The notes beneath the pieces are model-generated. The model made no database searches. It saw nothing but the letters and a program-made list of their open reading frames with translations, and was not told the origin of the DNA. This document shows, piece after piece, positions 765-58,240 of a stretch of DNA of 64,000 nucleotides (position 1 is the stretch's first letter; each line of letters begins with the position of its first letter). A program made the translations under genes and the position numbers. The stretch covers positions 1 to 64,000 of the forward strand of contig JAJRTN010000017.1 in assembly GCA_024278275.1 (NCBI GenBank). Direction: 5' to 3'. This stretch comes from Candidatus Hydrogenedentota bacterium (GTDB lineage Bacteria; Hydrogenedentota; Hydrogenedentia; Hydrogenedentales; JAJRTN01).

Positions 765-1346
765 ATGGCATTCACCCTTGAATTGGGCGCGCAGGCCCCG
801 GATTTCCATCTGCCCGCCACGGACGGCAAGACCTATTCACTGGCTGATTTCAGCGACGCGAAGGCGCTGGTCGTGTTCTTTACCTGCAACCATTGCCCCT
901 TCGTCACGGGCAGCGACGAGGTTACCCGGAAGACGGTGGAGCGTTTCGCGCCGCAAGGGGTGGCCTTCGTCGGCATCAACGCGAACGAAACGGAAAACCA
1001 CCCCACCGACGCCTTCGACCACATGGTGGCGCGCATGGAGGAACACGGTTTTCCCTGGGTCTACTGCCGCGACAATTCACAGGACGTGGCCCGTGCCTAC
1101 GGCGCCCTGCGCACCCCCCATTTTTACGTTTTCGACGCCGACCGGAAACTGGTATACACGGGGCGCGGCGTGGACAACCCCCGCGAGACGGACAAGATGA
1201 CCGTCAATGACCTCGACAACGCCCTCGAAGAACTGCTTGCCGGCAAGCCCGTCACCACGCCGCTTACCAACCCCATCGGTTGTAACGTGAAGTGGCGGGG
1301 AAAGGACGCGCACTGGATGCCCGCCGAGGCCTGCGACCTGGTGTGA
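765..1346 (+). CDS. Thioredoxin-fold redoxin (AhpC/TSA-like)
   Basis: 193 residues. The N-terminus ([20 protein letters not shown]) is the typical opening of peroxiredoxin/TlpA-type proteins. The redox motif FTCNHCPFV, near residue 44, gives a C-N-H-C pair. A cis-Pro segment RTPHFYVFD follows, and the C-terminal part ([11 protein letters not shown]) carries another Cys. This matches a widespread thioredoxin family protein with a CxxCP motif, probably a cytosolic thiol-disulfide reductase or peroxidase, since no signal peptide is visible. The ATG at 765 follows AAAGGAA. It converges with the SGNH gene, leaving 12 bp. Confidence 0.9.
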
Positions 1347-1358
1347 TCTGACGGGCCG

Positions 1359-2699
1359 TTACCATGTGGGGAAGAGCTTGAGCAGTGCTTTGGCGAATAT
1401 ACGATGTCCCCGCTCGTCGGGATGGTTGATGGCATTCCCAAGCAGGGTGGGATAAGGGATACCGATGCGCCACAGCTTGCACCATTCCACCGAGGCGTCC
1501 GCGAGCGCCACGTCGTACTCCCTGGCGAAGCGGCGAAGCCCCTTCACGTAGGGCCTGGGGTCGTCGTCGAACTTCACCGAGTCCACGCCCATCCAGTCCG
1601 GTCGGACGAGATGGGGCGTCAACACGATCAACTCCGCCCCCGCGCCCCGGATGCGGTCGAGGAGCATCTTGTAGTGTTCCACCGTCTGGTCCTCGGTGAG
1701 ATAGGCGTCGTTTACAAACTCGATGGTTACCAGGTCGGGCTTGGGATCCAGTACGTCCCGCTGGAAATTGTGTTCGGCGCCCTCGGGCTGTTTGAGCCAT
1801 TGGGCGCTGCTGGAGCCGCCCCAGCCGGCCGTGATCATTTCAATTTCGGCGCGTGGGAAACGTTCCATGAGCATGGCAAGGAACTGGTCCTGGTAGCGTT
1901 TGCTCTTGTCCGGCAGGACGCCGCCGCCCACGGTCACACTGTCCCCCCAGGCCACGATACGGACCTTCTCGCCCGCGCGCAGCTTGGCGAGCGTCTTGGG
2001 GAAGTGACGCAGGGCGTCCTCCTCCGGGTCATCGGGCAGCATCTTCTTCATGGAAGGACTCAAGGGGAAGATGTTTTCTTCCGTGAGCTTGTCCATGTTG
2101 CCATGGGTCCAAACCGTGACCAGGGCCTTTTCCCCCCGCTTGTGCATGGGGGGATGAATAACGGCGAGTCCCGGTTTTCCCGAGGCCAGTCGGGTGCCCC
2201 CGTCGCCATAGAGTACGGCATGCAATTGCTCGGGAAAGTAGGTGTAGTCCACCAGCACCGCCGTGTCCGCGCCGATGCGTCCGCCTTCGAGGCGGCCCAG
2301 GGTGGCCCAGGAATCATCCAGTTCATAATCCTTGCCCCGTTCGTAGACGACACTTCGGTCCGCCGATTTCACCACCACCGAGGCGGGCACCAGGGCGCCG
2401 GTGGCCGTACACTCCTGCGCGATAAGCGCTTTCAGCCGTTCCCCGCGCGTCCAGCCGCCTGTTTTCGGATTGAAGACACGCAGGTGGGGATAGGCCTCCT
2501 CTTTGATGGTCACGGGCACGGGCGCCGGGATCTTGAAAATCTCCGACTTCGTAAGTTCCACCTGACCGTTGATGCCCTTGACCACGCCCGGGCCGACTTC
2601 AATGGTCCAGGGACCCACGATGTGAACGGGCATGGCGTTATCCAGGACAGGCGTGGCGGCCATGAGGCCGGTCAGCAGAAAGGCGGTTCCAATGATCAT
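1359..2699 (-). CDS. Secreted SGNH/GDSL-family hydrolase
   Basis: 446 residues from the ATG at 2699, chosen because GGAG lies about 10 bp upstream; an in-frame TTG at 2708 is too close to it. A hydrophobic leader (IIGTAFLLTGLMAATPV) suggests export. The N-terminal half is a beta-rich accessory region. The C-terminal half carries SGNH-hydrolase blocks: VRIVAWGDSVTVGGG (block I Ser), a Gly near AGWGGSSS, VTIEFVNDAY in block III, and NHPDERGHRIFAKALLKLF with the Asp/His pair in block V. The family includes carbohydrate esterases and rhamnogalacturonan acetylesterases; deacetylation of a polysaccharide is a reasonable guess. It is divergent from the DUF1080 gene, with 175 bp between starts. Confidence 0.88.
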   Translation of the reverse strand: MIIGTAFLLTGLMAATPVLDNAMPVHIVGPWTIEVGPGVVKGINGQVELTKSEIFKIPAPVPVTIKEEAYPHLRVFNPKTGGWTRGERLKALIAQECTATGALVPASVVVKSADRSVVYERGKDYELDDSWATLGRLEGGRIGADTAVLVDYTYFPEQLHAVLYGDGGTRLASGKPGLAVIHPPMHKRGEKALVTVWTHGNMDKLTEENIFPLSPSMKKMLPDDPEEDALRHFPKTLAKLRAGEKVRIVAWGDSVTVGGGVLPDKSKRYQDQFLAMLMERFPRAEIEMITAGWGGSSSAQWLKQPEGAEHNFQRDVLDPKPDLVTIEFVNDAYLTEDQTVEHYKMLLDRIRGAGAELIVLTPHLVRPDWMGVDSVKFDDDPRPYVKGLRRFAREYDVALADASVEWCKLWRIGIPYPTLLGNAINHPDERGHRIFAKALLKLFPTW

Positions 2700-4445: not shown

Positions 4446-7403
4446 TTACCAACCCAGGGGCTTTTGCCAGGCTGCTTTCAACTCCGCCAGGGAGGCGTCC
4501 ACCTGGAGACCCTTTCGGCAGGTAATCCGCAATCGCTCGTCGTCCACCACGTCACCGATCCGGAACAAACCGTGGCCGTTGAGTTGCTGCTCGAAGGCTT
4601 CGCTTTTCCCCCGCGGCACGGTGACCACGAAACGGCTTTGGGATTCGCTGAAGAGGGCGGCGATACTGCTTTCCAATCCGAGGGGCGCGAGATCGAGTTT
4701 CATGCCGAAGCCACCGGCGAAAGCGCTTTCCGCCAGGGCCACGGCAAGGCCGCCGTCGGAGCAGTCATGACAGGAGGCCACGAGTCCCTCGGCGATGGCG
4801 CGGGACAGGGCGCTGTAGCGGGCGCGGGCGACCACCGGGTTGACCCTGGGCACGTTGACCCCGAGCTGGCCGTGCAGGGCGAGGTATTCGCTGCCGCCCA
4901 GCTCGTCCCGGGTCTCGCCCAGGACATAGACCGCGTCGCCGGGACGTTTCACGTCCATGGACACCACTTTCTCCACGTCGTCGATGATGGCGGCGGCGGT
5001 GAAGAGCACCGTGTGCGGAATGGAGATTCGCGTGCCGCCGATGCTGTAGTCGTTTTTCATGCTGTCCTTGCCGCTGATGAGAGGGATATCGTAGGCGGTA
5101 CAGACCTCGTACAGGGCCTCGCAGGTGCGCACCAGTTGGGCGAGTTTGTGCCGGCCGTCGGGCGTCTTTTCACTCTCCACGGGATCGGGCCAGCAGAAGT
5201 TGTCCAGCCCGGCGATGGCGCCCATTTTCGCGCCCACGGCGACGAGGTTCCGCACCGCCTCGTCGATGGAGCAGGCCATCATGTGGTAGGTGTCGATGTC
5301 GCTGTAGCGTGGCGTAATCCCGCAGGCCACGGCGATGCCCTTCCTCGAACCGGGCACGGGCCGGATGACCCCCGCGTTGCCGGGGCCGTCGTGGTCCGCG
5401 CCCTGGAAGGGCTTGAGGACGCTTTGCCCCTGCACTTCGTGGTCATACATGCGCACGAAGCTTTCCTTGCTCGCCACGTTGAGCGCGCCCAGGACCGCTT
5501 TAAGTTCCGCCGTGAGGTCCGTGTCTTCCACGATCACCTCGGGCCGGAGCGCGGGCGGCTCAATCTTCGCCTTCAGGCGCATCCGGGGCACGCCGTCGTG
5601 GAGGAAGTCCATGGAGAGGGAGGCGATCCGCTTGCCCTCGTGGAAGCACTCCAGGTACCCGCTGTCGGTGAATTCGCCCAGCACCGTGGCCTCCACCTCG
5701 CGCCGCGCGGCCAGGTCGAGAAAGGCGTCGATGTGTTCCGGAGGCACGGCGAAGCTCATCCGTTCCTGTGCCTCGGAGAGGAAAATCTCCCAGGGGGCGA
5801 GGCCGGGATACTTGAGGGGGGCCTTGTCCAGGTGAATCCGCGCGCCGCCGGGATCGCGGGCCATCTCGCCCAGGCTGGACGACAGTCCCCCCGCGCCGTT
5901 GTCGGTAATGCTGCTGTAGAGTCCCAGGTCACGCGCCTCGAAGAGGAAATCGGCCATCTTGCGCTGGGTAATGGGGTCGCCGATCTGCACGGCCGTGGCG
6001 GGCGATCCTTCGTGCAATTCCTCCGAGGAAAAGGTCGCGCCATGGATGCCGTCCTTGCCGATGCGGCCGCCCGTCATGACAATGAGGTCCCCGGGACGGG
6101 CTTCCTTGGTCTCGGTGGGTCGTCCGTTGATCGTCCGCGGGATGAGACCGCCCGTGCCGCAGAAGACGAGGGGTTTGCCCAGGAAACGCTCGTGGAAGAC
6201 GATGGCGCCGTTGATGGTGGGAATGCCGCTTTCGTTTCCGCCGTCCCGCACGCCCGCGTGGACCCCCCGCAGGACGCGGCGGGGATGGAGCAGGCGCTCG
6301 GGAATGGTTCCGTCGAAGTAGGGCGTGGCGAAGCAGAAAACATCGGTGTTGAAGATGCACTTGCAGCCCAGGCCCGCGCCCAGGATGTCGCGGTTTACCC
6401 CCACGATACCCGTCATGGCGCCGCCGTAGGGGTCCAGGGCGGAGGGACTGTTGTGGGTTTCCGCCTTGAGGGCGAAATTGAATTGCTCGTCAAAGCGGAT
6501 GATGCCCGCGTTGTCGTGAAAGACGCTTACCAGCCAGTCGATACGCTTCGCCACGTCGTCCGTGGCGCCCTTCACGAAGGTCTTGAAGAGGCCGTCGATG
6601 GTGCGCGTCTTTCCCTCGGCGTCGGTATATTCGATGAGGGCGGAAAAGATCTTGTGCTTGCAGTGCTCGGACCAGGTCTGGGCGATGATCTCCAGCTCAA
6701 TGTCCGTGGGGTGGGGGGGAAGTCCCGCCCCGCGCCGGTGCGCGGCCGTCGTTCCATCGCGGTAATGGTCCCGGATTGCCCTCATTTCGTCCACGTCGAG
6801 GGCCAGCGTCATTTCGCGGCTGAGCGCGGCAAGCGCCTCATCCGCCCGTTCCAGGTTAATCTCGTGGATCACCGGATCACTGCGGTCGGTGACGATGGGC
6901 AGATCGAGCAGGGGCGCGTCGCCGTGGACCCCCATCTCTTCGCGTGACTTGAGCGCCCACTGTTCGATGAGATCGTTGGCCAGGGCACGCCGGGCGATGC
7001 GCCGGGCCTCCGCCTCGTTGACCCCTTTCAGGGCGTACTGGGTGGACTTGTAGACCGCTTCGCCCTCGGCCAGCTTGCGGCCCAGCGTGTCCTGTATGCC
7101 CACCACCGAGCTTTTGCCCACGTTGTCCGTGACCCCGGGGCGAAAGCCCACCTCGATGAGATAGTCATAGTTCCGGGCGAGGGAGCGGTTCAACGCGGAT
7201 TCCTCGATGACCGGATCGGTGAACAACTCGACACGGACCCGCTCCAGTTCTTCCCCGGAAAGATCGGCGTTGATCGTGTAGACGTGGAGAATGCGGATGG
7301 CCTCGGCGCGAATCCCCAAATCTTCCGCCAGGCGGCTGGCCAGCGCGTCACCCGCCGGGTCGGGGCGGTCCGCCGGGATGGCCACTTCGATACGCTCAGC
7401 CAT
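4446..7403 (-). CDS. purL: Phosphoribosylformylglycinamidine synthase, synthetase subunit PurL with N-terminal PurS-like region
   Basis: 985 residues, much longer than the ~740-residue small PurL. The first ~180 residues (from RIEVAIPADRPDPAGDALA) look like a PurS-like domain plus linker. The synthetase core follows: PHPTDIELEIIAQTWSEHCK, FALKAETHNSPSALDPYGGA, a Gly-rich ATP site at DILGAGLGCKC, ITDNGAGGLSSSLGEMA and a second AIR-synthase-like half with SCHDCSDGGLAVALAE. It converts FGAR to FGAM using ATP and ammonia from PurQ. The start overlaps the end of purM by 8 bp, which suggests translational coupling. Confidence 0.96.
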   Translation of the reverse strand: MAERIEVAIPADRPDPAGDALASRLAEDLGIRAEAIRILHVYTINADLSGEELERVRVELFTDPVIEESALNRSLARNYDYLIEVGFRPGVTDNVGKSSVVGIQDTLGRKLAEGEAVYKSTQYALKGVNEAEARRIARRALANDLIEQWALKSREEMGVHGDAPLLDLPIVTDRSDPVIHEINLERADEALAALSREMTLALDVDEMRAIRDHYRDGTTAAHRRGAGLPPHPTDIELEIIAQTWSEHCKHKIFSALIEYTDAEGKTRTIDGLFKTFVKGATDDVAKRIDWLVSVFHDNAGIIRFDEQFNFALKAETHNSPSALDPYGGAMTGIVGVNRDILGAGLGCKCIFNTDVFCFATPYFDGTIPERLLHPRRVLRGVHAGVRDGGNESGIPTINGAIVFHERFLGKPLVFCGTGGLIPRTINGRPTETKEARPGDLIVMTGGRIGKDGIHGATFSSEELHEGSPATAVQIGDPITQRKMADFLFEARDLGLYSSITDNGAGGLSSSLGEMARDPGGARIHLDKAPLKYPGLAPWEIFLSEAQERMSFAVPPEHIDAFLDLAARREVEATVLGEFTDSGYLECFHEGKRIASLSMDFLHDGVPRMRLKAKIEPPALRPEVIVEDTDLTAELKAVLGALNVASKESFVRMYDHEVQGQSVLKPFQGADHDGPGNAGVIRPVPGSRKGIAVACGITPRYSDIDTYHMMACSIDEAVRNLVAVGAKMGAIAGLDNFCWPDPVESEKTPDGRHKLAQLVRTCEALYEVCTAYDIPLISGKDSMKNDYSIGGTRISIPHTVLFTAAAIIDDVEKVVSMDVKRPGDAVYVLGETRDELGGSEYLALHGQLGVNVPRVNPVVARARYSALSRAIAEGLVASCHDCSDGGLAVALAESAFAGGFGMKLDLAPLGLESSIAALFSESQSRFVVTVPRGKSEAFEQQLNGHGLFRIGDVVDDERLRITCRKGLQVDASLAELKAAWQKPLGW

Positions 7404-8457
7404 AATTCAACGCCCCTTTGTACTCCACGGTGCCGTTCCCCGGGATGACCTCGCCCACTATCATGGCGGACTGTCCCGCCAGATCGATGGTTTCCAGGGC
7501 CTTTTCCGCCTGGTCTGCCCGAACCACCACGAGGAAGCCCTGGCCCATGTTGAAGGTGCGAAGCATCTCCATGTCCGCCACGTTGCCGGTTTCCCCCAGG
7601 AAACGGAACAAAGGCGGCACGGTCCAGGCGCCCAGGTCGATGACGGCGCCCAGGCCTTCGGGAAGCACGCGGGGAAAGTTCTCCGTGATGCCACCGCCGG
7701 TGATGTGGGCCATGCCCCGCACCTCGACCACCTTCATCACGATCTGCATGAGCTTGGCATAGCTGAGATGGGGCTCCATGAGGGCCTCCGCCACCGTCCG
7801 GCCCACGCCCGGCATTTCATCGTCCGGGCCGAGTCCGGCCACCTCGAAACAGATCTTGCGCGCCAGGCTGTAGCCATTGGTATGGAGACCCGACGAGGGC
7901 AGACCGATAATCTTGTCTCCGGCCTCGATGGAGGAACCATCGACGATCTTCTTCCGGTCCACCATGCCCACGATGGTGCCGGCGAGATCGTATTCTCCCG
8001 GCCGGTACATATTGGGCATTTCGGCGGTCTCGCCGCCAATCAACGCGCAGCCGCCCAGCAGGCAGCCGTTGGTAAGTCCGCGAACGATACTCACCACGAC
8101 CTCCGGGTCGAGTTCCCCCACGGCCAGGTAGTCCATGAAAAAGAGGGGGCGCGCTCCCTGAACAAGAATGTCGTTTACACAGTGGGAAACAATGTCAATA
8201 CCCACCGTGTCGTGCTTGCCCGTCATGAAAGCCAGCTTCAGCTTCGTGCCCACGCCGTCCACGCTGGAAACGAGGACGGGCTCTTCCATGCCCTTGAGAT
8301 TGGGTTGATACATGGCGCCAAAGGTGCCGATATCCCGCAATACCTGGTCGTTAAACGTGCGCTTTACCAGGCCTTTTACCGTCTTGAGCGCCGTATTGGC
8401 CGCGTCGATATCAACCCCCGCGTCGCGGTAACTCAGCCCTGTCTTATCTTCACCCAT
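7396..8457 (-). CDS. purM: Phosphoribosylformylglycinamidine cyclo-ligase (AIR synthetase) PurM
   Basis: 353 residues from the ATG at 8457, preceded by AAGGAA; the frame stays open further upstream but without a ribosome site. PurM motifs: LSYRDAGVDIDAAN, VLVSSVDGVGTKLKLAF, VSHCVNDILVQGARPLFFMDY, CALIGGETAEMPNMY, GLPSSGLHTNGYSLARK and AHITGGGITENFPRVLP. It closes the imidazole ring to make AIR from FGAM, the step after PurL/PurQ, and is first in the operon. Upstream is a ~370-bp gap before the divergent LysR gene; no purine riboswitch was recognised there. Confidence 0.97.
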   Translation of the reverse strand: MGEDKTGLSYRDAGVDIDAANTALKTVKGLVKRTFNDQVLRDIGTFGAMYQPNLKGMEEPVLVSSVDGVGTKLKLAFMTGKHDTVGIDIVSHCVNDILVQGARPLFFMDYLAVGELDPEVVVSIVRGLTNGCLLGGCALIGGETAEMPNMYRPGEYDLAGTIVGMVDRKKIVDGSSIEAGDKIIGLPSSGLHTNGYSLARKICFEVAGLGPDDEMPGVGRTVAEALMEPHLSYAKLMQIVMKVVEVRGMAHITGGGITENFPRVLPEGLGAVIDLGAWTVPPLFRFLGETGNVADMEMLRTFNMGQGFLVVVRADQAEKALETIDLAGQSAMIVGEVIPGNGTVEYKGALNYG

Positions 8458-8617
8458 ACCGGATTCCTTCGCTTGGTTGGCCCGGACCCTGGCGGTCGGG
8501 AACAAGAGGAGGATAATAGTCGCCCATGATATAATGCAAATGAAATGTTTGGATTGCCTCGATAAGGTAAACTTATTGATGTATGGTAGAGACAGTACCT
8601 GTTTACCCCGCCTGGAT

Positions 8618-8678
8618 CGTTATTGCGAGGAGGAACGACGAAGCAATTCATGGTCGCCGGGCCTTCCTCGCCATGACG
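8618..8678. repeat. REP-like palindromic element (CGTCATTGCGAG type)
   Basis: The left arm reads CGTTATTGCGAGGAGG and the right arm is its near inverted complement (CCTTCCTCGCCATGACG). This is a degenerate copy of the common CGTCATTGCGAGG...CCTCGCAATGACG intergenic element. It lies in the 366-bp gap between purM and the LysR gene, where nothing else coding is visible. A related but distinct copy is at 38937-39001. Confidence 0.65.
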
Positions 8679-8823
8679 GTAACGTTGCCCCGGGATCTTA
8701 CCGCTTTCAAATCGGTTGGAGGCCGCTTCTGCTTCGGGTGGTGAAAGGTCACGAAAACAACCGCGTAAGACCGTGTGTGTCCATCCCAGCCAGCGGACCT
8801 TTACTTACCAAGGAGTCGTCGCC

Positions 8824-9708
8824 ATGACCCTCGACGCCCTACGCTGTTTTTGCGCCATCCTCGACACGGGCGGTTTCCGTTCCGCCGCAGCGCGGGTTCA
8901 CCGCTCGCAGCCTGCGGTAAGCCAGCAGTTGAAAAGCCTCGAAGAGGAAACGGGGCACGTTCTCATCGACCGCAAGACCTGTCGTCCCACGCCCATGGGC
9001 CGGATCCTGCGGGATCGGGCGCGGCACATCTTGCAGGAGCTCCAGGCGCTGGAGCGGGAATTGCGCGACTTCGACGAGACCGCGGTGGGGGAGTTGCGGG
9101 TGGGCACGAGCGACACGACGGCCATGTACGTTCTGCCGCCCTATGTGCGGCGTTTCGCGGAGGTTATGCCGCGCATCCACCTGGTACTCACGAACCGGCA
9201 TTCGGAAGAACTCGCGCGGCAGGTTCGGCAGGGCGAGATCGACCTGGGCATCGTAACCTTGCCCGTCGAGGATCCCGGACTGGAGGAGCATTTGCTCTTC
9301 GAGGAGCATTTTCGGCTTGTCGTGCCCGCCGGCCATCCGCTGTGCGGAAAACGCCGGGTCCGGTTAACGGACCTGGTCGAGCTGCCCATGCTTCTGTTGG
9401 ACGAGGGAACGCGGACGGGCGGACTCTTGCGCCGTCATTTTCAGACGAAAGGCTTCACGCCGCGCACCGTGCTGGACAGCGGTTCATTCGAGGTGATCAA
9501 GCGGTACATCGCCGAAGGGGTGGGGATTTCGTTCCTGCCGGAATCGGTGGTCACGCCGGGGGATGCGTTGCTCGTGACCCGCGAGGTCGCGGGACTGCCG
9601 CGGGTAAGCATCGGAGCGGTCCGACGCAAGGGCATCTATCGCACGCGGGCGGAAAAGGCTTTCCTGGACCTGTTGCGCGCGCCGGTGGCGAAGAAGCCCA
9701 TTGCCTGA
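8824..9708 (+). CDS. LysR-family transcriptional regulator
   Basis: 294 residues. The start at 8824 is set by AAGGAGT about 8 bp upstream. The N-terminal winged helix-turn-helix is clear: FCAILDTGGFRSAAARVHRS followed by QPAVSQQLKSLEEETG. The substrate-binding domain follows from about residue 90 (GELRVGTSDTTAMYVLPPY, GEIDLGIVTLP, ISFLPESVV). It resembles the CysB/CysL-like branch. The effector and targets are unknown; it is divergent from the purine operon by 366 bp and may or may not control it. Confidence 0.93.
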   Translation: MTLDALRCFCAILDTGGFRSAAARVHRSQPAVSQQLKSLEEETGHVLIDRKTCRPTPMGRILRDRARHILQELQALERELRDFDETAVGELRVGTSDTTAMYVLPPYVRRFAEVMPRIHLVLTNRHSEELARQVRQGEIDLGIVTLPVEDPGLEEHLLFEEHFRLVVPAGHPLCGKRRVRLTDLVELPMLLLDEGTRTGGLLRRHFQTKGFTPRTVLDSGSFEVIKRYIAEGVGISFLPESVVTPGDALLVTREVAGLPRVSIGAVRRKGIYRTRAEKAFLDLLRAPVAKKPIA

Positions 9709-45159: not shown

Positions 45160-45504
45160 TTAGATGATGCCAATAACCGGGGCCTTGATGTTAACGAAAT
45201 CTATTTCGTTAACATCCTCGTTCGAAGCCCCTAACTTAAATGCCTTCAAACGGTTACCACGCAGTACCTCGTAACCATTCTGGCACAATTCGGCACCATA
45301 TTGTTTGATATAATTGTCAATAGTGCGCGGGGTTACCTCAAAAAATGCGGCCACTTGCTCCTTGGTGAGTACGCTCTTACCCTCGAAGGAAATGCCTTGA
45401 ATCCGGGTGGCCCGCTCAATTTCCTTGAGGGCGAAGGGATTGTTCAGGATATTCTGCCGGTCCACCGCTGACGCGGTAAGATCCTTTTTCCCGCTTCCGC
45501 TCAT
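45160..45504 (-). pseudogene. Truncated HTH DNA-binding protein (N-terminal domain only)
   Basis: 114 residues from the ATG at 45504, with GAGGA upstream. NPFALKEIERATRIQGISFE, then VLTKEQVAAFFEVTPRTIDN and YEVLRGNRLKAFKLG match the N-terminal DNA-binding domain of a longer family (about 300-350 residues as I recall it, often beside Fic/death-on-curing genes). Here a stop follows KAPVIGII, just where the family continues into its second domain, and no continuation was found in the other frames. It is a truncated gene or a stand-alone HTH remnant. A 30-bp palindrome lies in its 3' end. Confidence 0.65.
45187..45216. repeat. 30-bp perfect palindrome inside the 3' end of the HTH gene
   Basis: Arms GATGTTAACGAAAT and ATTTCGTTAACATC around a CT centre, 14 bp each with no mismatch. 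It is AT-rich in a GC-rich region. It could be an operator, a hairpin or an inserted palindrome. Confidence 0.85.
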
Positions 45505-45568
45505 TTCGTGGTTCCTCACAGGGGTCTTGTGCCATGAGTGAGGCCCGGGGTTTTCCCGGATCTCTTTA

Positions 45569-48236: not shown

Positions 48237-50093
48237 ATGCAGTCCATTTCGGTCGTAATCCCCACACATAACCGGCTGCCCGTGTTACTGGAGGCGTTGC
48301 GCTGCCTCGCGGGGGGCAGCGAGATGCCCGACGAGGTTATTGTGGTCGATGACGGTTCGGAGGAGCCGGTACAGCCGGCGGTGGAGGCGGCCGATTTCGG
48401 CTTTCCCTCGCTCCGGGTCATCCGCTTTTCGCCGGGCCGGGGCGCTCCGGTGGCGCGCAACGAAGGGGCGCGTGCGAGTACGGGCGATATTGTTGTCTTC
48501 ATGGATGACGATCTGCTGCCGGATGTGAACATGGTGCGCTACCACCGGCGGATTCATGAAGCCCATCCCGCGCCGAATTACGGGGTCATGGCGCGCATCT
48601 ATTTCGATCCCGACCTGCCGCGCACGCCCCTCATGCACTACATCGAGGAATACGGCTATTTCACGGCGGTCAGCAAAGATCCTGACCGCACCCCCGTGCT
48701 GGACGGGTTGATCAGTGCCAATTTTTCCATGAAGCGGGCCTTCATGGAGGGGCGAAGCAAGCTCTTCGACGAGAACTTTCCTCACAACCGCAACGAGGAT
48801 ACGGAGTTCGGGGTGCGCATGGTGGCCGAGGGCTGGGACCTGCACTATCACATCGCGCCGAGCAGCCGCCATCATTCCCCCCTGGACCTGGATACCTTTT
48901 TCAGGCAGGTGCGCCAGGGCGGCTTCTCCAAGGCCTATTGGTCCCTCGCCGCGCCCGATGATACGGGCTTTTGCCTTTGCCTGGGAGAATGCGCGAAACG
49001 CAAGCTGCGGGAAGTCGAGATTACCGCGCTCATCGGGCAATACCGCGAGGCCTTCGGGGAAGCGCTTATCACCGGCGACATGGACCACTGTTCCCCGGTC
49101 GAGTTCGACAACTTCCGTTTCTTTGTCCGCAATGCCATGGCCTGGGTGCAGGATATTGGCCAGATGGATGGCTGGTGCGAGCGGGTTCCCGTCGTGCGGG
49201 ACATGCTGGATGACTTGGCGGAAGCCTTCGATGCGAAAGACACGGATGAACGGTTGACCCACCTCACGCGCGCCCATGACCGGGATCCCGCGTTCCTGCC
49301 CATGGCCGTGCTGCTGAGCGATGAACTGGGCGGGGCGGGTTACCTGGAGGAGGCCCGAAAGGCCCTGGTCCCGGTTGCCGGCAGCCTGTGGGTGAAGCTT
49401 CGCATGGCCGAACTTGCCGAAGCATTGGGCGACCTTGAGACCTGTTGGCGCAACGCACGCATGGTTTACGACGGCACCGCGGGCGGCAATGGCGTCCAGT
49501 GGGAACAACGCCGCCGGGCGTCGGAAATCCTCACGCGGCTGGAGGCCACGGACTGTTTCGACATTGCGTGGGCGAGAAGCGTTTGGACGGCGCTGGGCGC
49601 GCGCGATTTTACCTACAACCGCCAGTGGGTCTACACGCTTCACCGTGCGTTGAAACGCCGCGGCCTGTTGCCGGAGAACGAAACCGTGTCGGGCCTGTTG
49701 GAGCGAATGAGCGGCATTCACACCTGCAACAAGGTGTTGAAGGCTTTAAACGGGGCCGCGGAATACAAGGCGCCGCAACGGATAACGCCGTCGGTCACGC
49801 CGCCACCGCCGCTTCGTCCCGAACGGGCCGTGGACAAGGTGATTGGCAAACGCCTGGCGGGCGAGGTGACCTGGTTCACCCCGGAGAAGCGTTTCGGCTT
49901 TGTCCGCATGGACGGCACGGATCTTATTGCCTTTGTTCACTACCGGCACGTGAAAGTGCCCCGGTTTGCGTACTTTGAGCCCGGGCAACGGCTCACGTTC
50001 ACGGTTCACGAAACGACTATTGGACTGGAAGCGCGGGACATACGCCCCGAAGAAGGCCCTGAATCCAATGGCAATGCCGGACCCACCGCGTGA
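48237..50093 (+). CDS. GT2 glycosyltransferase with TPR-like middle and C-terminal cold-shock domain
   Basis: 618 residues. The ATG at 48237 is favoured over a TTG three bases before. GT-A fold of family 2: ISVVIPTHNRLPVLLEALRC, EVIVVDDGS, PVARNEGARAS, IVVFMDDDLLPD (D-D-D) and HNRNEDTEFGVRMVAEGW (E-D). A helical, TPR-like stretch covers ~330-480. Residues 538-604 form a cold-shock domain: AGEVTWFTPEKRFGFVRM (RNP1-like) and LIAFVHYRHVKVPRFAYFEP (RNP2-like). A nucleic-acid-binding domain on a glycosyltransferase is unusual; here it may have been adapted to bind something else. The next gene starts within 27 bp. Confidence 0.9.
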   Translation: MQSISVVIPTHNRLPVLLEALRCLAGGSEMPDEVIVVDDGSEEPVQPAVEAADFGFPSLRVIRFSPGRGAPVARNEGARASTGDIVVFMDDDLLPDVNMVRYHRRIHEAHPAPNYGVMARIYFDPDLPRTPLMHYIEEYGYFTAVSKDPDRTPVLDGLISANFSMKRAFMEGRSKLFDENFPHNRNEDTEFGVRMVAEGWDLHYHIAPSSRHHSPLDLDTFFRQVRQGGFSKAYWSLAAPDDTGFCLCLGECAKRKLREVEITALIGQYREAFGEALITGDMDHCSPVEFDNFRFFVRNAMAWVQDIGQMDGWCERVPVVRDMLDDLAEAFDAKDTDERLTHLTRAHDRDPAFLPMAVLLSDELGGAGYLEEARKALVPVAGSLWVKLRMAELAEALGDLETCWRNARMVYDGTAGGNGVQWEQRRRASEILTRLEATDCFDIAWARSVWTALGARDFTYNRQWVYTLHRALKRRGLLPENETVSGLLERMSGIHTCNKVLKALNGAAEYKAPQRITPSVTPPPPLRPERAVDKVIGKRLAGEVTWFTPEKRFGFVRMDGTDLIAFVHYRHVKVPRFAYFEPGQRLTFTVHETTIGLEARDIRPEEGPESNGNAGPTA

Positions 50094-50119: not shown

Positions 50120-53100
50120 ATGATGAGTATTGCGAAAGGGCTGCGGAAGTTTGCCGTGGCCGTGATTATGTCCAACAAGATTACCCGGGGCATACAGCGC
50201 CGTATCGCGCTCGATGACGCCTGCCTGGAGAGCCTCTTCACCCACACTTTGTTCCCCCGTCGTCTCACGCAAAACGATTCGCTCTGGGACGTATTCGTCC
50301 GTACCGTGCGCGGTCCCCTCGTGTTCCTGAGACTTTTCCGCGCCCTTTGCGCCGACGACCGCGCGGCCGAACATGCGCTGGAAGACCGGCGTTTTCTCGC
50401 GCGCCTGCTGCGCCTGTTGCCTCGCAGGCTGCGGGAAGATGAAGCACTGTGGAAGGCCTTTACCGGGCTGTTAATGACGCCGGGGTTGTTTCTCAAGTTG
50501 TTCCGCCTCTTCTGTGCCGACGACCGCGCGGCGGGGCATGCCCTGGAGGACCGGCGTTTTCTCATCCGCGTGATGAGCCTGTTGCCCCGGCGGCTCAGGG
50601 AGGACGAATCTCTCTGGGACGCCTTCATGGGGATGGTGATGAAGTCCACCCTGTATACGCGGGTGCTTCGTGCGCTGTTGAAAGATGACCGCGCGCTGGA
50701 CTGCATCCTCGACGACCGGGAACTGGTGGAACGAATCGCGGGCAGCCAGCGTTTCGAGGAAATTGTTTTCGGGCTGGAGCCGAGAGCCTTCGGCCCGGCG
50801 GACCTGTCCTCCACCGGGAAAAACCTGGCCGCGAAGCTGGCGGAATCCCCCCACCTGCTTCCACGATTGGCGTGTTCTCCCCGTGCTGCCGAGGCCCTGC
50901 TCAACGAACCCGGCCTGCTCGCGCTGGCGCGTTTGCTGGAGACCGACCGGGCCGTGGATCTCATCTGCACCGAGGAGGACGTGCTGCGCCGGGTACTGGC
51001 GAATCCCGCGGCCCTGGAGGCGTTGACCGATGATCCGGCGTTGCTGTTGCCCTTCCTGAAGTCGAACCCTCTTTTCAACGCCATCCTGCAGCATCGTCCC
51101 TTGCTTCAGCGCATCGTCAACAGCGGAAAGGCGCGCGAGCGCATTGTGAGAACACCAAAACTGGTCGAAGCCCTGGTCGCCACCCCCGCTTTTACAAAGG
51201 CCCTGGTGAAAGTGCCGGAAGCACTGCACCGCGTACTGTCCAGCCCGGTCGCGCTGGATACCCTGGTGGGTGACGATGCGTTGCTGGAACGGGTGCTGAG
51301 CCGCCCGGACCTGCCGCCGAAGGTGCTGGCCCACGGGGCGTTGTCCGAGCGTTTGGCGGGCGATGATCGGCTCCTGGACCTGGTCGTCGCCCGGGAGGAT
51401 TTCCCCGCGCGCCTGGCCGAGCGGGCCGACGCGGCCCTGTGGCGGAGCCTGCTGTCGCCCGATTCCGTGATGGCGGCGTTGGCGGCCAACGCCGATTATG
51501 TCAAGCGTCTTGCGGCTCAACCGGCGGCCCATGCGACACTCACCGGCAACATTCCCTTTATGAAACGGGTTCTGGCGGAGGGCCAGGTTTTTGGCCTTTT
51601 GCTGAACGATGATGAACTGCTCGACCGGTTGGTGAAACACGAACGGACCCGGGATCGTATCACGGAGAACCGGGTCCTCTTGCGCCGGTTGGTCACGGGA
51701 ACAGCGGGCGTGCAGGAGGCCCTGTCTGAGCGGGCACACCTGCTTCGCCTGCTGGACACCAAGGCGGCCCGGGACGCGCTGGCCAACACGCCGGACCTGC
51801 TCCAGGGATTGCTGGGCGATTTGGCGGTCTTCGCGCGCCTGGCGGAAGATGATGACTTCGTGAAGCGCATCGCGAAGGATGATCGCGCGGTTCAAACCCT
51901 TTCGGGCAACGTGCCCTTCGTGCGCCGGCTCCTGGGCGAAGCGAAGGCTTTTGGTGTCGTACTCAATGATCCCGAGATCCTTGCCCCCATTCTCAGGCAC
52001 CCCAAGGCCGTGTCGGCGCTCCTCGCGGACCAGCCATTGTTGCGCGATCTGTTGCGGCGCGAACCGGTGAGTGCCGTTCTCCTCAGTGACGGGGAAAGAC
52101 TGCATCAACTGCTGGACACCCGGGAAGTTCGCGGTCTGCTGGCGAACACGCCCGACCTGCTCGAACGGATCTTGAACGATGACGGTGTTTTCGGGCGCAT
52201 CGCCGAGAACGGCAAACTGATGAAGCGCCTGGTCAAGGAATCCGCCGTGGTGGACACCTTGGCCGGAACACCCTCTTTTGTACGGGTCTTCCTCGAAGAG
52301 GACCGCGTTTTCGGCGCCCTCCTCAACAGCGAGACCATCCTCGGGCGCGTGGTTCGGCACGCCAAGGCGGGTGAGGTCATCCGGTCGGCCAAACCGCTCC
52401 TGAAGTCGATCACCGAGAGTGACGCGGGCGTGGCGGCCATCCTCGACAACACCGATCTGCTTACCCGCCTGACCGACAGTCCTCCTCTGCGGAAGCACCT
52501 GGCGCGACAGCCTGAATTGTTGGCCCGGTTGTTCCGTGACAGCGAGGTGTTCCCGGTGATCGCGGCGGATACGGCGTTTGTCAAGCGCCTCGCCAAGGAG
52601 GACACCGCCCTGGCGGTCCTGGCGGAAAACGTGCCCTTCCTGCAACGTCTGCTGCGGGAAGACCGGGCGTTCGGCGTGATGCTCAACGAGCCGGAGGTTC
52701 TTGGCCGCGTGGTGCGTCACGAACGTGCGCTCGAATGGATCGAGCAGGACCCCGCGCTGCTTTGCCGCATTGCCACGGGGGATGCCGGGCTGGCGGTTGT
52801 TCTTTCCAGCGTGCCCGCCATGACCCGGATTCTCGAAGCCCCTTCGCTCCGGGCCTGTCTCGCGGCGCAACCGGATTTGTTGATTGGACTGGTGAATGAG
52901 CAGGCCGTGTTCGCCACGTTGACCGGCCGGCCCGACTTCGTGAAACGGCTGGCTAAGGAAAAGGCTTCGCTGACCGCGCTGGCTGGAAACGTGCCTTTCC
53001 TGCGCCTTCTGCTGAACGAGGACAAGGCCTTTGGAACCCTGCTCAACGAACCGGAGATCCTCGGGCGGGTGTTGCGCCACGAAAAGACGCTGGCCTGCCT

Positions 53101-55999
53101 GGAAGACGATCCCGGTCTGCTGCGCGCCATCGTGGGCCGCCCGGCGGCCCGCGCGGCCCTGCTGTCCAGTCCGGCAGGCCTGGCGGAACTGCTCGATACC
53201 GAGCCGGTGCGGACGCATCTCGCGGGTCAACCGGCGCTGTTGTTGAAGACGGTGGGGGACGCGGCGGTATTTCATGTACTGTCCGGGGATGCCGATTTCG
53301 TGAAACGTTTGGCAAAGGCGGAGACCGCGCTGGCCACGCTGGCGGAGAACCCGCCCTTCCTGCGCCTTCTGCTGAACGAGGACAAGGCCTTTGGAACCCT
53401 GCTCAACGACGCGGAGACCCTGGGCCGGTTGCTGCGTCACGAAAAGACGCTGGCCTATTTGGAAGGCGATCTGGGCCTGCTGCGCGCCGTCGTGGGCAGT
53501 CCGGCGGGCCGGACGGCGCTGCTCTCCAGCCCGTCGGTCCTGGCGGAACTGCTTGACACCGAGCCGGTGCGGACGCTTCTCGCGGGTCAACCGGCGCTGC
53601 TGTTGAAGACGGTGGGGGACGCTGCGGTATTCCGTGTATTGTCTGGTGATGGAGACTTTGTGAAACGTTTGGCGAAAGCGGAGACGGCGCTGGCCACGCT
53701 TGCGGAGAACCCGCCCTTCCTTCGCCAGTTGCTGGCGCAGGACCGGGCTTTCGGGACCGTGCTCAACGATGCGGAGACCCTGGGCCGGTTGCTGCGTCAC
53801 GAAAAGACGCTGGCGTATTTGGAAGGCGACCTGGGCCTGCTGCGCGCCATCGTGGGCAGTCCGGCGGGCCGGACGGCGTTGCTTTCCAGCCCGTCGGTCC
53901 TGGCGGAACTGCTCGACACCGAGCCGGTGCGGACGCTTCTCGCGGGTCAACCGGCGCTGCTGTTGAAGACGGTGGGGGACGCCGCGGTATTCCGTGTATT
54001 GTCCGGTGATGGTGACTTTGTGAAACGTTTGGCGAAAGCGGAGACCGCGCTGGCCACACTGTCGGGCAATCCGCCCTTTGTTCGTCAACTCCTGGCGCAA
54101 GATCGGGCTTTTGGAGTCGTGCTCAACGAAGCGGAGATCCTGGGGCGGGTGCTCAATCATGAACGGGCACGGACGGCCATCGCGGAGCAGGGCGCGTTGC
54201 TGCGGCGAATCGTCGAGGACGAGCGGGCCACCGCGACCCTGCTCAACGACGCGGCCTGGCTCACGGGCGTCATGCGTTCCGCCCAGGTGCTTCGTTTACT
54301 CGCCGGCGCGCCTGATCTTCTTTTGCGCTTGACCAATGACAACGATCTTTTCCGCCTCCTCATGGGCGACGACGGTTTCGTGAAACGCCTCATGCGGGAC
54401 GATCACCTTGTGAGCGTGGCCGCCGGCGACGCCATCTTCGCGTACAAGTTCCTGGGACAGGTGGACATTGTCGGGCGCATAGCCCGGGAACCCATGATCG
54501 TGGGGGCGCTGCTCTCGGATAAGACCTTCCACGAATCCGCCACCCGGGACAAACGTTTCATCCGCCGTTTCGCCTCCCACGGCGATGTTTTCGAGGCGCT
54601 TATGAGCAACGGCGATTTCCGCCGTAGGGCGGGCGCAGACCGGCGGATGCTGGCGCAGTTGCTCGCCACGCCCGCCAGTGTGAAGGCGCTGGTGAGTGAC
54701 GACCGTGCCATCGATTTCGTCGTGGGACAACCCGCGGCCTTCGTGAAAACCGTTACGGGTCGGGGGCGCCTGTCGAAGCTCTGTGGCGAACAGGGCCTGT
54801 TGGCCCGCCTTCTGGGCCACGAGGGCGTGCGCCACCGTATTGCCCGGGAGAATGCCCTGTTGGGACCCCTCGTGAGCGACACCCGGCTCTGCGATGCCAT
54901 CGCCGAAACGCCAGTCTTCCGGGGCCGCCTGTTTGAGAACGAGCGGGTCATGGACAGCATCGTCACGGACGGCCGGTTGCTTCGCCACGAAAGCGTGCGC
55001 AACCACTTGCGCGCCACCCTGGCCTTCAGCCGCGCTTTCGAGTCGCTTCGTCCCTATCTGCCCGCCGACCTGCCCGATTTGCCCCAACGCATCAGCAAGG
55101 CGCGGGCCAAGCTCGACGACGATAAGGGTGTGCCCGAGGCCATCCTTAAGGTGATGTGCGACCGAAACACGGTGGTGCTCGCGCCGAAGCCCTTGCGTTT
55201 CCCCGACAAGGAGGCGCTCTGGACCTGTATGCAGGAAATCCTCATGGCGGAGGAGTACTACTTCGAGGCCGAAAGCGACACGCCCCGCATCCTCGATTGC
55301 GGCGCGAACTTCGGCCTGGCCGTCCACTACTTCAAGCGCCTCTACCCCAAGGCCCGTATCACCGCCTTCGAACCCATCCCGCGTATCCGCCGCATGACGA
55401 AAAAGAACATGGCGGACAGTGGCTACGGGGATGTGGAAATCCTGCCCTACGCCTTGTCCGACCAGGCGGGCAAGGCACGGTTTCTTGTGTCGAAAACCTA
55501 TGCGCTGGCCGGTTCGCTCACGGAGCGCCGCAAAGAGGCGGGGGACGCGGTAGAAGAGATCGTGGTGCAGTGCCGCACCCTCGGCGCTTTCCTCGAAGAG
55601 CCGGTGGACTACCTGAAACTGGATATCGAGGGAAGCGAGGACGTGGTGCTGGCCGAGGCACGGCCCCTCCTGGGTAACGTGCAGCACATCTTCTGCGAGT
55701 ACCATCACGGCAGTGGTTTGGCCACCGACCGGTTGGCCCGCATCCTGGATCTGCTGGACGAGGAGGGCTTTGACTGCCACGTGAGCAAGTCGGTCACTTT
55801 CTCCCAATCCTCGGCCCGGCGTCCCATGAACTTCGTGCGCCGCCCTTATTCCGCCGTCCTGTGGGCCAAGGCGCGGGACTGGACGGAAGGCCGGCGGCGA
55901 GCCGCCGCCTTTCTGGCGAAACAAGGCAAGGCGGCCGAGGCTAAGCGTGCCCCGAAAGCAAAAGCAAAGACGAAGAGAACGAACAAAGTAAAGGTGTAG
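50120..55999 (+). CDS. Giant leucine-rich helical-repeat protein with C-terminal FkbM methyltransferase
   Basis: 1,959 residues from ATG 50120 (ATG 50123 equally possible; GGGGAGAGG at 50108). A GTG at 50090 would overlap the GT2 stop. N-terminal part: 55-residue repeats (LEDRRFLARLLRLLPRRL type) over residues ~30-220. Middle: ~24-residue helical repeats to about residue 1,630, grouped by five into a 120-residue unit; GDFVKRLAKAETALATL-like anchors occur every 120 residues nine times from residue 459. C-terminal ~1,720-1,900: FkbM methyltransferase, with ILDCGANFGLAVHYFKRLYP (SAM motif), ITAFEPIPRIRRMTKKNM and VDYLKLDIEGSEDVVLAEA. The tail is Lys-rich (APKAKAKTKRTNKVKV). No signal peptide or membrane segment. 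Likely a cytosolic alpha-solenoid scaffold carrying an O-methyltransferase for a glycan. Confidence 0.93.
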   Translation: MMSIAKGLRKFAVAVIMSNKITRGIQRRIALDDACLESLFTHTLFPRRLTQNDSLWDVFVRTVRGPLVFLRLFRALCADDRAAEHALEDRRFLARLLRLLPRRLREDEALWKAFTGLLMTPGLFLKLFRLFCADDRAAGHALEDRRFLIRVMSLLPRRLREDESLWDAFMGMVMKSTLYTRVLRALLKDDRALDCILDDRELVERIAGSQRFEEIVFGLEPRAFGPADLSSTGKNLAAKLAESPHLLPRLACSPRAAEALLNEPGLLALARLLETDRAVDLICTEEDVLRRVLANPAALEALTDDPALLLPFLKSNPLFNAILQHRPLLQRIVNSGKARERIVRTPKLVEALVATPAFTKALVKVPEALHRVLSSPVALDTLVGDDALLERVLSRPDLPPKVLAHGALSERLAGDDRLLDLVVAREDFPARLAERADAALWRSLLSPDSVMAALAANADYVKRLAAQPAAHATLTGNIPFMKRVLAEGQVFGLLLNDDELLDRLVKHERTRDRITENRVLLRRLVTGTAGVQEALSERAHLLRLLDTKAARDALANTPDLLQGLLGDLAVFARLAEDDDFVKRIAKDDRAVQTLSGNVPFVRRLLGEAKAFGVVLNDPEILAPILRHPKAVSALLADQPLLRDLLRREPVSAVLLSDGERLHQLLDTREVRGLLANTPDLLERILNDDGVFGRIAENGKLMKRLVKESAVVDTLAGTPSFVRVFLEEDRVFGALLNSETILGRVVRHAKAGEVIRSAKPLLKSITESDAGVAAILDNTDLLTRLTDSPPLRKHLARQPELLARLFRDSEVFPVIAADTAFVKRLAKEDTALAVLAENVPFLQRLLREDRAFGVMLNEPEVLGRVVRHERALEWIEQDPALLCRIATGDAGLAVVLSSVPAMTRILEAPSLRACLAAQPDLLIGLVNEQAVFATLTGRPDFVKRLAKEKASLTALAGNVPFLRLLLNEDKAFGTLLNEPEILGRVLRHEKTLACLEDDPGLLRAIVGRPAARAALLSSPAGLAELLDTEPVRTHLAGQPALLLKTVGDAAVFHVLSGDADFVKRLAKAETALATLAENPPFLRLLLNEDKAFGTLLNDAETLGRLLRHEKTLAYLEGDLGLLRAVVGSPAGRTALLSSPSVLAELLDTEPVRTLLAGQPALLLKTVGDAAVFRVLSGDGDFVKRLAKAETALATLAENPPFLRQLLAQDRAFGTVLNDAETLGRLLRHEKTLAYLEGDLGLLRAIVGSPAGRTALLSSPSVLAELLDTEPVRTLLAGQPALLLKTVGDAAVFRVLSGDGDFVKRLAKAETALATLSGNPPFVRQLLAQDRAFGVVLNEAEILGRVLNHERARTAIAEQGALLRRIVEDERATATLLNDAAWLTGVMRSAQVLRLLAGAPDLLLRLTNDNDLFRLLMGDDGFVKRLMRDDHLVSVAAGDAIFAYKFLGQVDIVGRIAREPMIVGALLSDKTFHESATRDKRFIRRFASHGDVFEALMSNGDFRRRAGADRRMLAQLLATPASVKALVSDDRAIDFVVGQPAAFVKTVTGRGRLSKLCGEQGLLARLLGHEGVRHRIARENALLGPLVSDTRLCDAIAETPVFRGRLFENERVMDSIVTDGRLLRHESVRNHLRATLAFSRAFESLRPYLPADLPDLPQRISKARAKLDDDKGVPEAILKVMCDRNTVVLAPKPLRFPDKEALWTCMQEILMAEEYYFEAESDTPRILDCGANFGLAVHYFKRLYPKARITAFEPIPRIRRMTKKNMADSGYGDVEILPYALSDQAGKARFLVSKTYALAGSLTERRKEAGDAVEEIVVQCRTLGAFLEEPVDYLKLDIEGSEDVVLAEARPLLGNVQHIFCEYHHGSGLATDRLARILDLLDEEGFDCHVSKSVTFSQSSARRPMNFVRRPYSAVLWAKARDWTEGRRRAAAFLAKQGKAAEAKRAPKAKAKTKRTNKVKV
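50213..50780 (+). repeat. 165-bp (55-codon) tandem repeats
   Basis: The codons for ADDRAAEHALEDRR start at 50351, those for ADDRAAGHALEDRR at 50516 and those for KDDRALDCILDDRE at 50681, exactly 165 bp apart. LPRRL/LW-A/D-F units show the same spacing. A degenerate copy precedes at about 50213. In frame throughout. Confidence 0.85.
51420..54500 (+). repeat. 360-bp (120-codon) tandem repeats, nine copies in exact register
   Basis: The anchor codons of the (D/G)-x-F-V-K-R motif fall at 51494, 51854, 52214, 52574, 52934, 53294, 53654, 54014 and 54374: eight intervals of exactly 360 bp with no indel. Each unit holds five 24-codon subrepeats. Copies at ~53300-54100 are nearly identical in DNA, implying recent duplication or gene conversion, while the outer copies are diverged. 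Confidence 0.92.
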
Positions 56000-56044: not shown

Positions 56045-56218
56045 ACGGATGTAAAGCTGTCCGGGGGGCGTCTCCGGGCACCGTGAGGCCGTGAATGACT
56101 GTGTAAAACGAAAGGCCCAAAATGTTTCCCCGCCGCCCCGTGGTGGCGCGTGGGTTGAAGGACATAGGATCTGTTCGCGGCGGCGTGGGCGGAGTGGGGC
56201 GGGAAAGGTGTAGTGTTT

Positions 56219-58240
56219 ATGCACATTGTATCGACCATGGACGATGTTGGTGTCGGCGAGTACCTGACCCTGGTGCGCAGCATCCGCGCCCACGGCGGTG
56301 GCATACCCCGCCTTAAAGTTATCGCGTTGACCGGTAATGTGACGGCGGACTCGATGAAACGGGTGCGGCAGGTGGCGGATGAAACCCGTCCCTTCGCGAC
56401 CTTTGCGTCTTACAGGCGTTACGACGCCTTCGGCGATGGCCTGGGGCATCCCCTGGGTAAGTTCGCCAAGCTGTTTTTCGCGCTGGAGTATTTCAACGAG
56501 AACACGCCGGATGACGAAATGGTCATGTTTCTCGACCCGGATGTTTACGTGCAGCGGCCCCTCCGGCAGTTCGTCAAGTTCCTGGATGACGACGCGCTGC
56601 TTTTCGGTCACGAAATCCAGCATTCTCACCACATGGCCAGGCCCAACGCACGCCTGAAAGTGGCGCACTATTTCGATGATCCCGGCGGCTGGTGGGCCAC
56701 CTATGTGACCGAAATTAACACGGGGGTCATTCTCGGCCGGGCGGCCACCTTCAAGCGGATCATGGGAGACTTCGAGAACTTCGTTCTCAAGTCGGACTAC
56801 TTCAAAAAGGCCATGCCCCGTGCCGGGGGCGCCCGCTGGCACGACCAGGATTTCTTCCGCTATTTCTACCGCAAGACCATGCGTACCGACATTGGCGTGC
56901 TCGACCTGGAGCAGATCTTTACCACTACCCGGGGCGCGGCGAAATGCCTTTACTTCGATATGAAGCGCAACCAGTACCGTACCGTCTGGGGGGCCACGCC
57001 CTTCGTAGTCCATTTCGCCGGGGGCACCCTCGGCAAGATTCCCCGCAAGCCTCCCGTGGACGAGACGCCCGCGCCCACACCCCCCGTGCTTTCCGCGGCG
57101 CCCGCCACCACGCACCACCTCGCCTACGTGGCGCAAGCGGATGACCCGGTGCTGGAGCACTGGATCGCCCGGCTGCCGCGCGACGAGAAGGTGTCCCTCC
57201 TTGTCGCGCCCGACGCAGGCGACACCGACGACCTCCAACGGCGTTACGAGGGTGTGTCACGGTCCTACGCGCTGGCCCATCCCCCGGAAGACGACGCGTC
57301 CCTGGATCAACTCAAGGCTGTCATGAGGGAAGTGCGTCCCCACGACGTGGTCCTGCCGTCGGGTCTCGATGCGCGGGAGATCGAGTTCCTGCCCGGTTAC
57401 CGCATGCCCGACCTGCGCCCGCTCTACCCGGCCGTGCGCGGCCTGTGGCGCGCGGGCGCGCGTCGCTTCCGCCTGCGCACCTTCGCGGGCTCCGTCGATA
57501 TGGACATTCCCTGGCTGCTCGACGGCCTGGTGAACCGCCACCAGGGCAAGCGCTGCTTTGTCGTCGGCAACGGTCCCAGCCTTAACGACCTGGACATGGG
57601 GTTGTTGAAGAACGAGATTACTTTCGGCTCCAATCGCTGCTACATGGGCTACGAACAGTGGGGCTACGGGTTTACCTATTGGGGGTGCATGGATCGTTTA
57701 CAGGTGGAGAAGTACGCCCTGGAATACGAACGAAACGTGCCTGAAGACTGTATCAAGCTCTTTCCCTTCGAATACATGCCGCTGTTTCGCTTCAAAAACG
57801 CCTGCCCCGTGAACCTTAACTACGAGTGGCGGCCCCCCTACCGTTTTTCCGGCACGCCCGGAGAATTGTTTCTCGGCTTTACCGTGACCCACATGCTGCT
57901 CCAGACGGCCGTGATCATGGGGTGCAATCCCATCTATCTCATCGGCGTGGATCACCGTTACAACCTGTCCAGCGCCCCCGAGAAGAAGCGAAAGATCGGC
58001 AAGTCCAACGCCGAACTATGGGTCGCCGGCGACGCTGCCAAACCGACCCATTTCACCAGCCAATACACCGGTGGCGCGCCCAAGGAGTTCGTCAAGCCCC
58101 GTCCCGAACGGGCCGAGGCCTGTTTCGAGGTTGCCAACACCTGGGTTCGGGACCATAGCCTGAAAATCCTCAACGCCACGCCCGGCACCGCCCTCACGGC
58201 CTTTCCCCTGGTGGATTTCAACAGTCTTTTCCCAAAGTGA
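56219..58240 (+). CDS. GT8-like glycosyltransferase fused to an MptE/DUF115-like domain
   Basis: 673 residues; ATG 56219 (a GTG at 56213 is possible) after GGGAAAGG. N-terminal ~1-280: GT-A fold of nucleotide-diphospho-sugar transferase type, with FALEYFNENTPDDEMVMFLD then PDVYVQRPL (D-x-D-like motif DPD), INTGVILGRAATF and RWHDQDFFRYFYRKTM. A variable middle of ~150 residues follows. From ~440: KRCFVVGNGPSLNDLDMGLL, TFGSNRCYMGYEQWGYGFTY, FTVTHMLLQTAVIMGCNPIY, LIGVDHRYNL and NATPGTALTAFPLVDFNSLF, the same family as the gene at 47373. A bifunctional glycan-assembly protein is the likely role. Confidence 0.85.
   Translation: MHIVSTMDDVGVGEYLTLVRSIRAHGGGIPRLKVIALTGNVTADSMKRVRQVADETRPFATFASYRRYDAFGDGLGHPLGKFAKLFFALEYFNENTPDDEMVMFLDPDVYVQRPLRQFVKFLDDDALLFGHEIQHSHHMARPNARLKVAHYFDDPGGWWATYVTEINTGVILGRAATFKRIMGDFENFVLKSDYFKKAMPRAGGARWHDQDFFRYFYRKTMRTDIGVLDLEQIFTTTRGAAKCLYFDMKRNQYRTVWGATPFVVHFAGGTLGKIPRKPPVDETPAPTPPVLSAAPATTHHLAYVAQADDPVLEHWIARLPRDEKVSLLVAPDAGDTDDLQRRYEGVSRSYALAHPPEDDASLDQLKAVMREVRPHDVVLPSGLDAREIEFLPGYRMPDLRPLYPAVRGLWRAGARRFRLRTFAGSVDMDIPWLLDGLVNRHQGKRCFVVGNGPSLNDLDMGLLKNEITFGSNRCYMGYEQWGYGFTYWGCMDRLQVEKYALEYERNVPEDCIKLFPFEYMPLFRFKNACPVNLNYEWRPPYRFSGTPGELFLGFTVTHMLLQTAVIMGCNPIYLIGVDHRYNLSSAPEKKRKIGKSNAELWVAGDAAKPTHFTSQYTGGAPKEFVKPRPERAEACFEVANTWVRDHSLKILNATPGTALTAFPLVDFNSLFPK

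Follow-up and report, generated by a model that had tools for sequence, protein, structure and literature searches.

A glycosyltransferase that ends in a cold-shock domain

Cold-shock domains (CSDs) normally occur in nucleic-acid proteins. What, then, is such a domain doing at the end of a glycosyltransferase, within a cluster of sugar-polymer genes? We address this question for a gene in the window, the 64,000-nucleotide stretch of Candidatus Hydrogenedentota DNA analysed here, which is carried on a 65-kb contig of a 5.35-Mb genome (200 contigs, 96% complete). The G+C content by codon position is coding-like across the GT2, middle and CSD parts of the gene alike, and the features discussed below are collected in Table 1.

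Table 1. Coordinates of the fusion gene, its parts and its neighbours in the window
Feature	Position	Strand	Remarks
DUF115/MptE-like soluble protein, 268 aa	47373..48179	+	Upstream; 68% identical to its L034 counterpart, likewise directly before a GT-CSD gene
GT2-CSD fusion gene	48237..50093	+	Single ORF, 618 aa; ATG start after a GGAGT Shine-Dalgarno-like stretch
GT2 (GT-A fold) glycosyltransferase domain	48243..48929	+	Residues ~3-231; PF00535/PF13641, aligned homologues
Middle region, no recognised family	48930..49781	+	Residues ~232-515, ~285 residues
Proline-rich linker (ITPSVTPPPPLRPERAVDKVIGKRL, contains PPPP)	49782..49856	+	Residues 516-540; from sequence
Cold-shock domain	49857..50045	+	Residues 541-603; PF00313, PDB Csp matches, residue map
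RNP1 motif TWFTPEKRFGFVRM	49869-49910	+	Residues 545-558
RNP2 motif AFVHYRH	49929-49949	+	Residues 565-571
Giant helical-repeat protein, ~1960 aa, C-terminal FkbM methyltransferase	50120..55999	+	Downstream; likely start ATG 50120 after GGGGAGAGG
675-aa protein	56213..58240	+	N-terminal half weakly nucleotide-sugar-transferase-like; C-terminal half MptE-like/DUF115

The enzymatic part is a complete GT2 domain, as an earlier sequence-only reading had proposed. It matches PF00535 at 1.8e-23 (83.8 bits; cut-off, 23.3) and has an intact metal motif, DDD (DxD-like), at residues 90-92 and an intact acid motif, NED, at 186-188, together with H212/H213. The top NCBIfam score is to GT2 enzymes of the EpsD kind (NF041875), with which the domain shares the GT-A fold and the intact metal and acid motifs. 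However, its 111 bits over residues 4-229 lie far under the equivalog cut-off of 370, and the protein further differs from EpsD in its additional unique middle of ~285 residues and in its CSD. The same reading had called this middle a TPR-like stretch, a description that finds no support here: Pfam and PDB searches return no significant match, Pfam TPR models included, and a generic TPR consensus score is reached by 226 of 500 shuffles. Homologues of the middle region are absent among the loci fetched. To judge from its sequence, the linker that follows is probably flexible.

The tail is assigned to the CSD family and to no other OB or SH3 family. PF00313 matches it at E 4.6e-9 in the whole protein and at 1e-10 (41.8 bits) in the isolated tail; scores range from 36.4 to 41.8 bits against a cut-off of 27, with profile positions 2-64 of 66 covered. 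The PDB matches are cold-shock-domain proteins, the top one being 2i5l CspB (5.5e-9). A chance motif is ruled out, because a CSD profile from which the tail was left out still gives it 50 bits, whereas the best of 1000 shuffles reaches 11.8. With both RNP motifs located, the C-terminal CSD first noticed by eye is borne out. It is like CspA and CspB (PF00313) in family by profile, in both RNP motifs and in having seven of seven stacking positions (one F to Y); it differs from them in lying within a 618-residue enzyme, in its changes at K7, N10, D25 and R56, and in its score (~41 bits versus 89.7 for a free Csp of the same genome). The architecture is thus a new one made of known domains, consistent with the earlier statement that no GT2-CSD protein is established: we find no glycosyltransferase-CSD protein in the open-access literature.

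A second fusion at a matching locus

When the 68 genomes of the same phylum, all from one order, are searched for CSDs with a complete list of matches, a single other long frame holding a glycosyltransferase emerges. This is an 865-residue protein of GT4-CSD-GT4 architecture at positions 6446-9043 of locus L034, from a genome (G015) of another family in the same order. The gene directly before it encodes a protein 68% identical to the short DUF115 protein that directly precedes the window's fusion (E 2.5e-137), so the two loci correspond. Since the second genome has an in-frame fusion at the matching locus, an assembly or frameshift artefact is ruled out, and the pairing of enzyme and CSD is real and probably selected. 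Loss of the fusion in all relatives, raised earlier as a concern, is likewise not what we observe.

Significant similarity between the fusion proteins is confined to the CSD (32% over 81 aa, 1.3e-8), and their catalytic domains, GT2 versus GT4, are unrelated. The two CSDs pair in a tree of 50 rows and 70 columns (88/93); their placement beside free Csps of the order is loose, and several of those Csps have the same EA..VRP-type tail. With long branches and few columns, the tree is suggestive of a common origin. Given that the CSDs pair, that the catalytic domains are unrelated and that the loci correspond, the CSD has stayed with the glycan cluster while the enzyme differs. It would be a constant accessory module of the cluster, paired in one lineage with a GT2 and in another with a GT4 catalytic module.

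Base-stacking positions in the fused domains

In Bacillus CspB, bases are stacked by F30 and F38 (site N1), H29 (N2), F27 (N3), F17 (N4) and W8 (N5), according to structural work summarised in PMC4493011. Mapping these residues onto the window CSD shows that the stacking aromatics, whose conservation had been put forward as a check, are kept at seven of seven positions, with F30 as Y. The L034 CSD keeps five of seven, having N2-N5 and lacking N1. The CSD of YB-1, an RNA binder, likewise has no counterparts of Phe30 and Phe38 and carries Glu at position 59 (PMC4493011), and both fused CSDs have E there too (Q59E). The kept stacking residues (7/7 in the window, 5/7 in L034) make single-strand nucleic-acid binding by the domain plausible. 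W8, F15, F17, F27 and H29 are the residues kept in both; if identity were spread at random, five given sites would all be identical by chance with a probability of ~0.002, a figure that overstates the case, these sites being conserved in all Csps. W8 is absent from every other fused CSD of the phylum in the tabulation. They are also changed alike, and mostly unlike other CSDs, at K7 (to T/H), D25 (to I/M) and R56 (to I/L); almost every other CSD in the tabulation has a basic residue at 56.

The surrounding glycan cluster

A simple hydropathy scan of both fusions and of the short DUF115 proteins detects no transmembrane segment. Distant homologues of the short DUF115 protein (32-34%) occur in two other genomes, G315 and G065, near PseF-like CMP-sugar cytidylyltransferases; the G315 relative (34%) lies in a CMP-sugar/ABC-export cluster near a Wzm/Wzt-like exporter, and the stretch fetched around it contains no CSD. 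From these PseF-like neighbours, the short DUF115 protein is probably a nonulosonate/Kdo-type transferase. The window's own genome has a PseF above cut-off on another contig (336 bits). Because of the homologues near PseF-like genes and the exporter, and of this PseF, the cluster likely makes a surface glycan or glycoprotein of the nonulosonate or Kdo type.

Further genes extend the comparison of the two loci. The MptE-like/DUF115 half of the 675-residue protein is 47% identical to the L034 2281-3849 product, a second DUF115 protein of G015, and the FkbM domain of the window's giant protein has a parallel in a G015 methyltransferase gene. The first ~50 residues of that giant protein (LRKFxxxIxxSNKxTR) resemble the start of the L034 2281-3849 product and, by eye, that of a 196-residue protein at locus L090. 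Adjoining the syntenic DUF115 and GT-CSD genes, L034 3879-5534 (+) encodes 551 residues that end in a SAM methyltransferase, the N-terminal half being without assignment. Just upstream of the window's glycan cluster, 45160-45519 (-) encodes a 119-residue protein with a weak DUF1670 match. A role in anti-phage defence finds no support among the neighbours: in both fusions PADLOC matched only the CSD itself. The sole other PADLOC match is that of the L034 methyltransferase domain to mad2, which is probably generic.

Possible roles of the fused cold-shock domain

Our preferred reading, to which we give a probability of only about 0.42, is that the CSD would be an accessory module that binds RNA or ssDNA and serves to regulate or position the enzyme. 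The protein would work in the cytoplasm as a soluble GT2 glycosyltransferase of a cluster for surface glycan or protein glycosylation, with the CSD tethered by the flexible proline-rich linker and most likely still binding single-stranded nucleic acid, probably RNA, through its kept stacking face. The enzyme may in this way be coupled to RNA, which would either let the cluster's mRNA be regulated autogenously or keep the enzyme near translating ribosomes. In favour of this reading we count that CSDs in this phylum are also fused to HPF/RaiA-like and NYN-like proteins (named by eye), which work on ribosomes or RNA; the changes at K7, D25 and R56 in both fused CSDs count against it. The reading draws on two fusions, and residues conserved between just two proteins are weak evidence.

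The main rival is docking to a partner protein, with the OB-fold reused to hold the glycosyltransferase to another protein of the cluster, such as the short DUF115 protein, and nucleic-acid binding lost or incidental. Both GT-CSD genes directly follow the same DUF115 subfamily, and neither is seen without the other among the genomes searched, counting close DUF115 homologues only; the hydrophobic residues at positions 25 (I/M) and 56 (I/L) in both fused CSDs would fit a contact face, and the giant neighbouring protein and the fused enzymes suggest an assembled complex. Yet both fusions keep W8, F15, F17, F27 and H29, most of which lie exposed in Csps, and pure docking has no need of exactly these; with only two cases at hand, we regard docking as somewhat unlikely. 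Were it correct, the CSD fold would have been reused outside nucleic-acid biology. The same kept stacking face, combined with the changed polar contacts K7, D25 and R56, could also bind another stacking ligand, such as the base of a nucleotide-sugar donor or a glycan chain, and so form an accessory substrate site. GT2 and GT4 enzymes use nucleotide sugars, as both partners here would, but we know of no precedent for a CSD that binds a sugar or nucleotide sugar, and we hold this to be very improbable.

An accidental or near-neutral acquisition of the tail, with no special role, would agree with how rare and patchy the fusion is (2 of the 68 genomes of the phylum, and none in the same-genus neighbour G021) and with the long branches. 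It fits poorly with an occurrence in two families of the order, at a matching locus, on unrelated catalytic domains and with the stacking face kept despite ~32% identity, and we judge it improbable. Similarly doubtful, at the other end of the range, is a glycan-assembly complex that the constant CSD tethers to RNA or puts under RNA control, with the glycosyltransferase exchanged and, at the extreme, RNA serving as the sugar acceptor. There is a small chance that the link between RNA and glycan is real. If true, carbohydrate synthesis and RNA would be joined physically, which is rare, by a CSD that a sugar-polymer cluster has kept on two unrelated glycosyltransferases; a domain of ~75 residues suffices to test this directly.

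Other proteins with cold-shock domains

The search for further GT2-CSD fusions that the sequence-only reading had called for thus yields one GT4-CSD-GT4 relative and no second GT2-CSD among the matches listed from the genomes searched. Complete listings contain no further GT-CSD fusion in the 68 genomes of the phylum and none in 95 genomes of another phylum, where no listed CSD lies in a frame of >300 aa. A profile of the two CSDs gives 152 bits for both and 68.7 for the next match, a free Csp, with no third member among the matches listed from 386 genomes; these larger searches list the best ~150 matches, so that a weakly matching GT-CSD fusion from another phylum may have escaped them. The genome contig collection returns only a Paenibacillus GT2 as a related locus, the annotated ones of the 40 plasmid matches listed are cold-shock proteins, and viral contigs give zero matches. 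One CSD in a 459-residue frame (G095) belongs to a free Csp over which a spurious long frame runs, and the phylum's other divergent long-frame CSDs belong to NYN-, HPF- or DUF1294-like fusions (named by eye), not to glycosyltransferases.

These NYN-CSD, HPF/RaiA-CSD and CSD-DUF1294 proteins, and the CSD-McrB homologues of CoCoNuTs, in which the CSD is read as a nucleic-acid contact (PMC11090510), resemble the window's protein in that a CSD, often read as an RNA/ssDNA-contact module, is added to a larger protein. They differ in that their partners either work on nucleic acid or ribosomes or sit in the membrane, whereas the window's partner is a glycosyltransferase; the other fused CSDs of the phylum have, in addition, lost the W8 that the window CSD keeps. 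Two further loci came to light among the CSD matches. L048 2563-3243 (+) encodes a 226-residue protein with a divergent N-terminal CSD (~30 bits) and an unrecognised C-terminal part, and L118 carries tandem CSD genes at 761-973 and 1114-1707 (+), the second with its CSD at the end of a 197-residue frame.
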